A DNA stretch of 38,491 nt from contig JANYIT010000230.1 of NCBI GenBank assembly GCA_025358725.1, positions 1 to 38,491 on the forward strand. Reading direction: 5' to 3'. Every line of letters begins with the position of its first letter. The stretch's first letter is position 1. Below the pieces are notes generated by a model, which saw nothing but the letters and a program-made list of their open reading frames with translations, did not search any database and was not told where the DNA came from. Both the position numbers and the translations under genes were made by a program. Positions 35,137 through 36,257 of the stretch are shown here, piece by piece. The stretch is from Chamaesiphon sp. GL140_3_metabinner_129_sub (GTDB lineage Bacteria; Cyanobacteriota; Cyanobacteriia; Cyanobacteriales; Chamaesiphonaceae).

Positions 35137-35835
35137 CTACATTTCCTTGATGATGACTTGATCGCCTTGAACTTCTCCAACTAATACCAAGTCTGTAACA
35201 CCGACAAAAAGACCGTTTTCGAGGACTCCAGGAATATTATTGAGCGTCTTTTCTAGCTCAGCGGGATTATCGATCGAGTCAAATTTTACATCAATCACTA
35301 AGTTACCCTGATCTGTGACAACTGGGCCAGCTTTTTTGATGCCCATGCGGAGTTGTGGTTTGCCACCAAGCTTTTCAATCGCTTTCATGACGGGAGTTAC
35401 CGCCATTGGGATTACTTCTACAGGTAGCAGGAAAGTGCTTCCCAGTCGATCAACTAGTTTGGTATTGTCTACGACTACGATAAACTGTGCAGCAAGCGCA
35501 TCGATGACTTTCTCTTGGGTGTGAGCTGCACCACCGCCTTTAATCAAATTTTTGTGAGGATCGACTTCATCGGCACCATCGATCGCGATGTCGATGCGAT
35601 CGACTTCATCTAGAGTAGTCAAAGGGATCCCATATTGCTTCGCCAACACTCTCGCTTGAAAAGATGTCGGAATGCCTTTGACATTGGTAATCTCTCCCGC
35701 AGCTAGTCGTTTGCCGATATACTCGATCGCAAAAGCAGTCGTCGAACCTGTTCCCAATCCGACGATGGAATTAGACTGTACTCGCGCCGCAGCAGCTTTT
35801 CCAACTTCCTGCTTCATCAAATCTTGTGGTGTCAT
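35137..35835 (-). CDS. rpiA: Ribose-5-phosphate isomerase A
   Basis: A 232-residue RpiA that interconverts ribose 5-phosphate and ribulose 5-phosphate, a step of the Calvin cycle and pentose phosphate pathway. Motifs: [18 protein letters not shown] (phosphate loop), [20 protein letters not shown] with the catalytic Asp and Lys, [12 protein letters not shown] and the C-terminal [18 protein letters not shown]. Normal length, ATG at 35835. A strong hairpin terminator and a structured RNA gene stand upstream on the same strand. Confidence 0.96.
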
Positions 35836-35971
35836 TATCTTATTAATCTCATTCGATATCTTTAGATACCACTCTATCAGTCAATTAAGCACAGAATCTA
35901 CACCCTCACGCCAGAAATCACCTCAATTTTTACCAAAGTGAGCACCAAATCAAAATTTCTCCCTATCCCCT

Positions 35972-36025
35972 TTTTTAAAAACCAGAACCCCCAACACGAA
36001 TGCTGGGGGTTCTGGTTTTTAAAAA
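35972..36025 (-). terminator. Strong terminator of the 6S-like RNA
   Basis: A 22-bp perfect stem: arms 35972-35993 and 36004-36025 with a 10-base loop. It contains ccagaaccccca paired with tgggggttctgg and ends in T runs on both strands. On the minus strand it begins 3 bases after the closing stem of the RNA at 36029-36220 and lies 137 bases before rpiA. No other gene ends nearby, so the RNA is its natural target. Confidence 0.85.
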
Positions 36026-36028
36026 TTT

Positions 36029-36220
36029 AGGTCAACCGCAACGCCGTCTTACCTCAGTTTATGACCTGGTTAAAACCAGGTGGGTACCGGATGTTCGCGC
36101 ATAAAGTTTCTGAATACAAAAGTTCAGTCTACTGCCGCTAGAACTACATGGGTTCCCGTAAAAAATTCAAGCATAGATCAAAAAACGTTATTGGCAGTCA
36201 CCAACGCCGCAGCCAGACCT
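36029..36220 (-). ncRNA. Structured RNA, likely 6S RNA (SsaA/SsrS type)
   Basis: A 192-base stretch on the minus strand between a promoter and a strong terminator, without a convincing gene. Its ends pair into an 18-bp closing stem (36202-36220 with 36029-36046; one bulged base, seven G-U pairs). Further pairings: ggg-a-acc (36151-36157) with ggt-a-ccc (36082-36088), tip hairpin ctgaacttttgtattcag (36110-36127), and a hairpin on the 3' side, acctggttttaaccaggt (36064-36081). Closing stem, large central bubble with a 3'-side hairpin, and an apical arm is the 6S RNA plan; 6S binds RNA polymerase holoenzyme. Identity is inferred from fold and size, not from sequence match. Confidence 0.62.
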
Positions 36221-36227
36221 TCTCTAC

Positions 36228-36257
36228 ATCTTACGGGAAAGACACTCGATCGGTCAA
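36228..36257 (-). promoter_or_regulatory. Promoter of the 6S-like RNA
   Basis: On the minus strand: -35 TTGACC (36252-36257), an 18-base spacer, -10 TAAGAT (36228-36233), then 7 bases to an A at 36220, which is the first base of the RNA closing stem. The agreement of the predicted start with the structure supports both calls. Confidence 0.62.

Follow-up and report, generated by a model that had tools for sequence, protein, structure and literature searches.

The 6S RNAs are a family of RNAs that mimic an open promoter: they bind the RNA polymerase holoenzyme and are released through the synthesis of pRNA. In Escherichia coli the 6S gene, ssrS, is transcribed with ygfA. Among cyanobacteria, deletion in Synechocystis slowed recovery from nitrogen starvation and altered the recruitment of SigA, and in vitro the cyanobacterial 6S RNA is active on E. 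coli polymerase (PMC5721685). In Synechococcus, Synechocystis and the marine picocyanobacteria the gene lies downstream of purK (PMC1242208). A literature search for 6S RNA together with Chamaesiphon found no mention of the pair.

The locus described here lies on the minus strand near one end of a 38,491-nucleotide stretch of DNA (the window) from a Chamaesiphon metagenome assembly. It is almost certainly the single-copy 6S RNA gene of this Chamaesiphon species, with a sigma-70-type promoter, an RNA of about 190 nt and an open-promoter-like fold. Its architecture and family are shared with E. coli ssrS, and its genomic neighbour is different. Compared with the 6S RNAs of other cyanobacteria it belongs to the same family, is similar in length and follows the usual pattern of one gene per genome; theirs, however, stand downstream of purK (PMC1242208), whereas the Chamaesiphon gene stands upstream of rpiA. 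This setting is its one mildly unusual feature.

The locus and its match to the 6S family

Along the minus strand from 36257 to 35972, a promoter is followed by a structured stretch of 192 nt and then by a terminator, with rpiA beyond:

36252..36257, minus strand: -35 element TTGACC, read from the sequence; 7 Chamaesiphon loci carry TTGACCGATCGAG unchanged
36228..36233, minus strand: -10 element TAAGAT, read from the sequence; the pattern TARRAT occurs in 7/7 Chamaesiphon loci
36029..36220, minus strand: 6S RNA (ssaA/ssrS homologue), from the Rfam match and covariation; start predicted at about 36220
36202..36220, minus strand: closing stem, 5' strand; 18 pairs with one bulge; helix 1 covaries in 8/14 counted pairs
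36158..36174, minus strand: central bubble, 5' side (approximate), from the Rfam alignment and conservation; the conserved TTTTTTGATCTATG leads in
36082..36157, minus strand: apical arm, with a GGG...CCC base and a covarying terminal hairpin; helices 3-5
36062..36081, minus strand: 3'-side hairpin ACCUGGUUUUAACCAGGU, from the minimum free energy (MFE) fold; helix 6
36029..36046, minus strand: closing stem, 3' strand, from folding and covariation
35972..36025, minus strand: intrinsic terminator hairpin of 25 pairs with a 4-nt loop and T5, from folding; a hairpin is present in 8/8 loci, its sequence variable
35137..35835, minus strand: rpiA, the downstream neighbour, outside the RNA gene; Pfam PF06026, 230.5 bits

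A scan of the whole window with Rfam 15 returned one match in total, to the 6S RNA model RF00013. It lies on the minus strand at 36029-36218, scores 83.5 bits against a curated gathering score of 46.4 (E 3.2e-15 for the whole window) and covers model positions 1-187 of 187, which is the full length. The scan found no RF00013 match on the plus strand of the locus, whose fold is also the weaker of the two, and no other Rfam family above its own gathering score in the 6S region. Weak microRNA-like and ohsC-like matches, below their gathering scores, are explained by the terminator hairpin. Like the RF00013 consensus, to which it matches over the full length, the Chamaesiphon RNA has a closing stem, a central bubble and an apical arm; it departs from the consensus by small insertions and a 4-base deletion. 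Its predicted length falls in the range of about 180-200 nt that is expected of the family, and at sequence level it has its own promoter and terminator, elements that are conserved in the genus. When the assembly (408 contigs, 93% complete) was searched with the RF00013 model, no second 6S copy was found at E <= 1.

The initial annotation, made from the sequence alone, had named the 6S RNA of this cyanobacterium and had gene, strand and stem exactly right. It had proposed an Infernal scan with the Rfam 6S model, and the result is the minus-strand match given above. It had also held that a clear 6S gene elsewhere, with this locus not conserved, would speak against the assignment; the match is instead the only one in the genome, and the locus is kept across the genus.

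Fold and covariation

Two properties of the single sequence carry little weight. The promoter match by itself is not significant (3 found versus 1.8 expected in shuffles), and the folding energy of the 192-nt RNA is not exceptional (z -1.42). Neither is significant alone; the case for 6S RNA rests on conservation and covariation. In an alignment of 35 cyanobacterial 6S sequences, the consensus fold has 41 pairs; standard pairs fill 95.2% of the pair cells in a count on the fixed structure, and 24 of the 41 pairs show double compensatory changes, on both sides. The covariation score was 0.345, versus 0.05-0.09 with the 3' partners slid 1-3 columns out of register and 0.169 with shuffled letters. 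The tested structure came from the same alignment, which gives it an advantage over the slid versions, but this has no bearing on the Rfam match. The predicted 6S fold, with its long closing stem, central bubble and apical arm, is established by covariation among the aligned relatives.

Direct folding of the window's own sequence gives the closing stem and the terminator hairpin. Positions 36220-36202 and 36046-36029 form a duplex of exactly 18 pairs (5+13) around one bulged U, at -24.1 kcal/mol, and this stem is contained in the MFE fold of the 192-nt RNA. Seven of its pairs are G-U, which makes it strand-dependent. The terminator hairpin begins 3 nt past 36029 and has a predicted energy of -39.0 kcal/mol; a simple terminator scan reported no terminator at the locus, though direct folding gives the 25-pair hairpin.

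Most of the structural detail in the initial annotation survives this comparison. Its TTGACC, 18-base spacer and TAAGAT are all present at their minus-strand positions (the spacer is 18 nt), its 18-pair closing stem is exact by both duplex folding and the MFE fold, and its count of seven G-U pairs, from which it had called the stem strand-specific, is borne out. The apical arm and 3'-side hairpin it described reappear as helices 3-5 and as the MFE hairpin of helix 6, and the covariance in relatives that it had asked after is seen in the closing stem. Its terminator does start 3 bases after the RNA; the stem, given there as 22 bp, has 25 pairs by folding.

Setting beside rpiA and distribution in relatives

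By their rpiA proteins, the closest named genomes are Chamaesiphon metagenome assemblies, with 94-98% protein identity. Seven Chamaesiphon loci conserve the -35 element, the -10 element, the 6S RNA and its position immediately upstream of rpiA, and all eight Chamaesiphon genomes with a readable junction have the RNA in that position, on the same strand as rpiA. The placement in the initial annotation is right: PF06026 confirms rpiA, and the order is kept in the genus. Genes upstream of the RNA vary by species: the window has an alpha/beta hydrolase there, and other genomes have other genes (the latter identified by eye). At 35870-35905 of the window, upstream of rpiA, a promoter-like stretch, TTGACTGATAGAGTGG (TTTTGCTGATAAAGTGG in relatives), shows conservation within the genus; it may be the promoter from which rpiA itself is transcribed.

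RF00013 matches were found in 37/40 near relatives and in 254/292 genomes drawn from the phylum, 156/292 being above the gathering score. Two Chamaesiphon assemblies have no scored match, and in both the contig stops near rpiA: one contig end cuts inside the RNA, with the 3' part retained (G008), and the other contig stops 146 bases upstream of rpiA (G002), so that its missing match is uninformative. A near relative (G034) has three full-length matches, two of them weaker, which could be either true copies or contamination. In one genus of the order (G019, G096, G231) the match is weak (about 35 bits) or there is none, which suggests a divergent 6S RNA.

Across the wider order, where positions were compared, 6S RNA is commonly found just downstream of purK, in many other families. 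In the sister genus of the same family it comes right after a trpB-like gene (L198:2490-2675, L199:1726-1911; trpB identified by eye). Its position thus differs between the two genera of Chamaesiphon's own family, rpiA-side in one and after trpB in the other; most likely the gene moved away from purK, in one step or two, on the lineage that gave rise to that family.

The constant order in Chamaesiphon could be read as a sign that the structured region regulates rpiA in cis, as its leader (a riboswitch or attenuator), and is not a separate RNA, given that it sits directly upstream, on the same strand, in all those eight genomes. We consider this very improbable: the RNA is a full-length 6S match, a strong terminator and the conserved promoter-like stretch stand between it and rpiA, and the reading is rejected because the RNA is found without rpiA in other genera, many times beside purK and in the sister genus beside trpB. 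The fragmentation and incompleteness of the assembly leave room for another idea, that the locus is a decayed copy with the working gene elsewhere; with no other 6S match in the genome, an intact closing stem, and a promoter, RNA and terminator that are kept throughout the genus, there is scarcely any chance of this. As for the 6S gene itself, its place beside rpiA is a lineage trait, most likely with no regulatory meaning. A regulatory link in which some 6S transcripts read through into rpiA is quite unlikely; if it were true, pentose-phosphate metabolism would track 6S expression.

Proposed action

By analogy with described 6S RNAs, the sigma-70-type promoter would drive an RNA of about 190 nt, ending before or at the terminator hairpin, whose long closing stem, central bubble and apical arm would give it the likeness of an open promoter. 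The Chamaesiphon RNA would then bind polymerase carrying the housekeeping sigma factor and alter transcription when growth conditions change, and it would come free once polymerase copies a short pRNA from the bubble; we infer both holoenzyme binding and pRNA synthesis from the known members. TTTTTTGATCTATG is near-invariant in the 35-sequence alignment and leads into the central bubble on its 5' side, and by analogy with E. coli this stretch is probably the pRNA template.

This ordinary 6S RNA gene adds a genus to a well-known family, and it illustrates a 6S RNA that stays constant while its genomic location shifts between cyanobacterial lineages.
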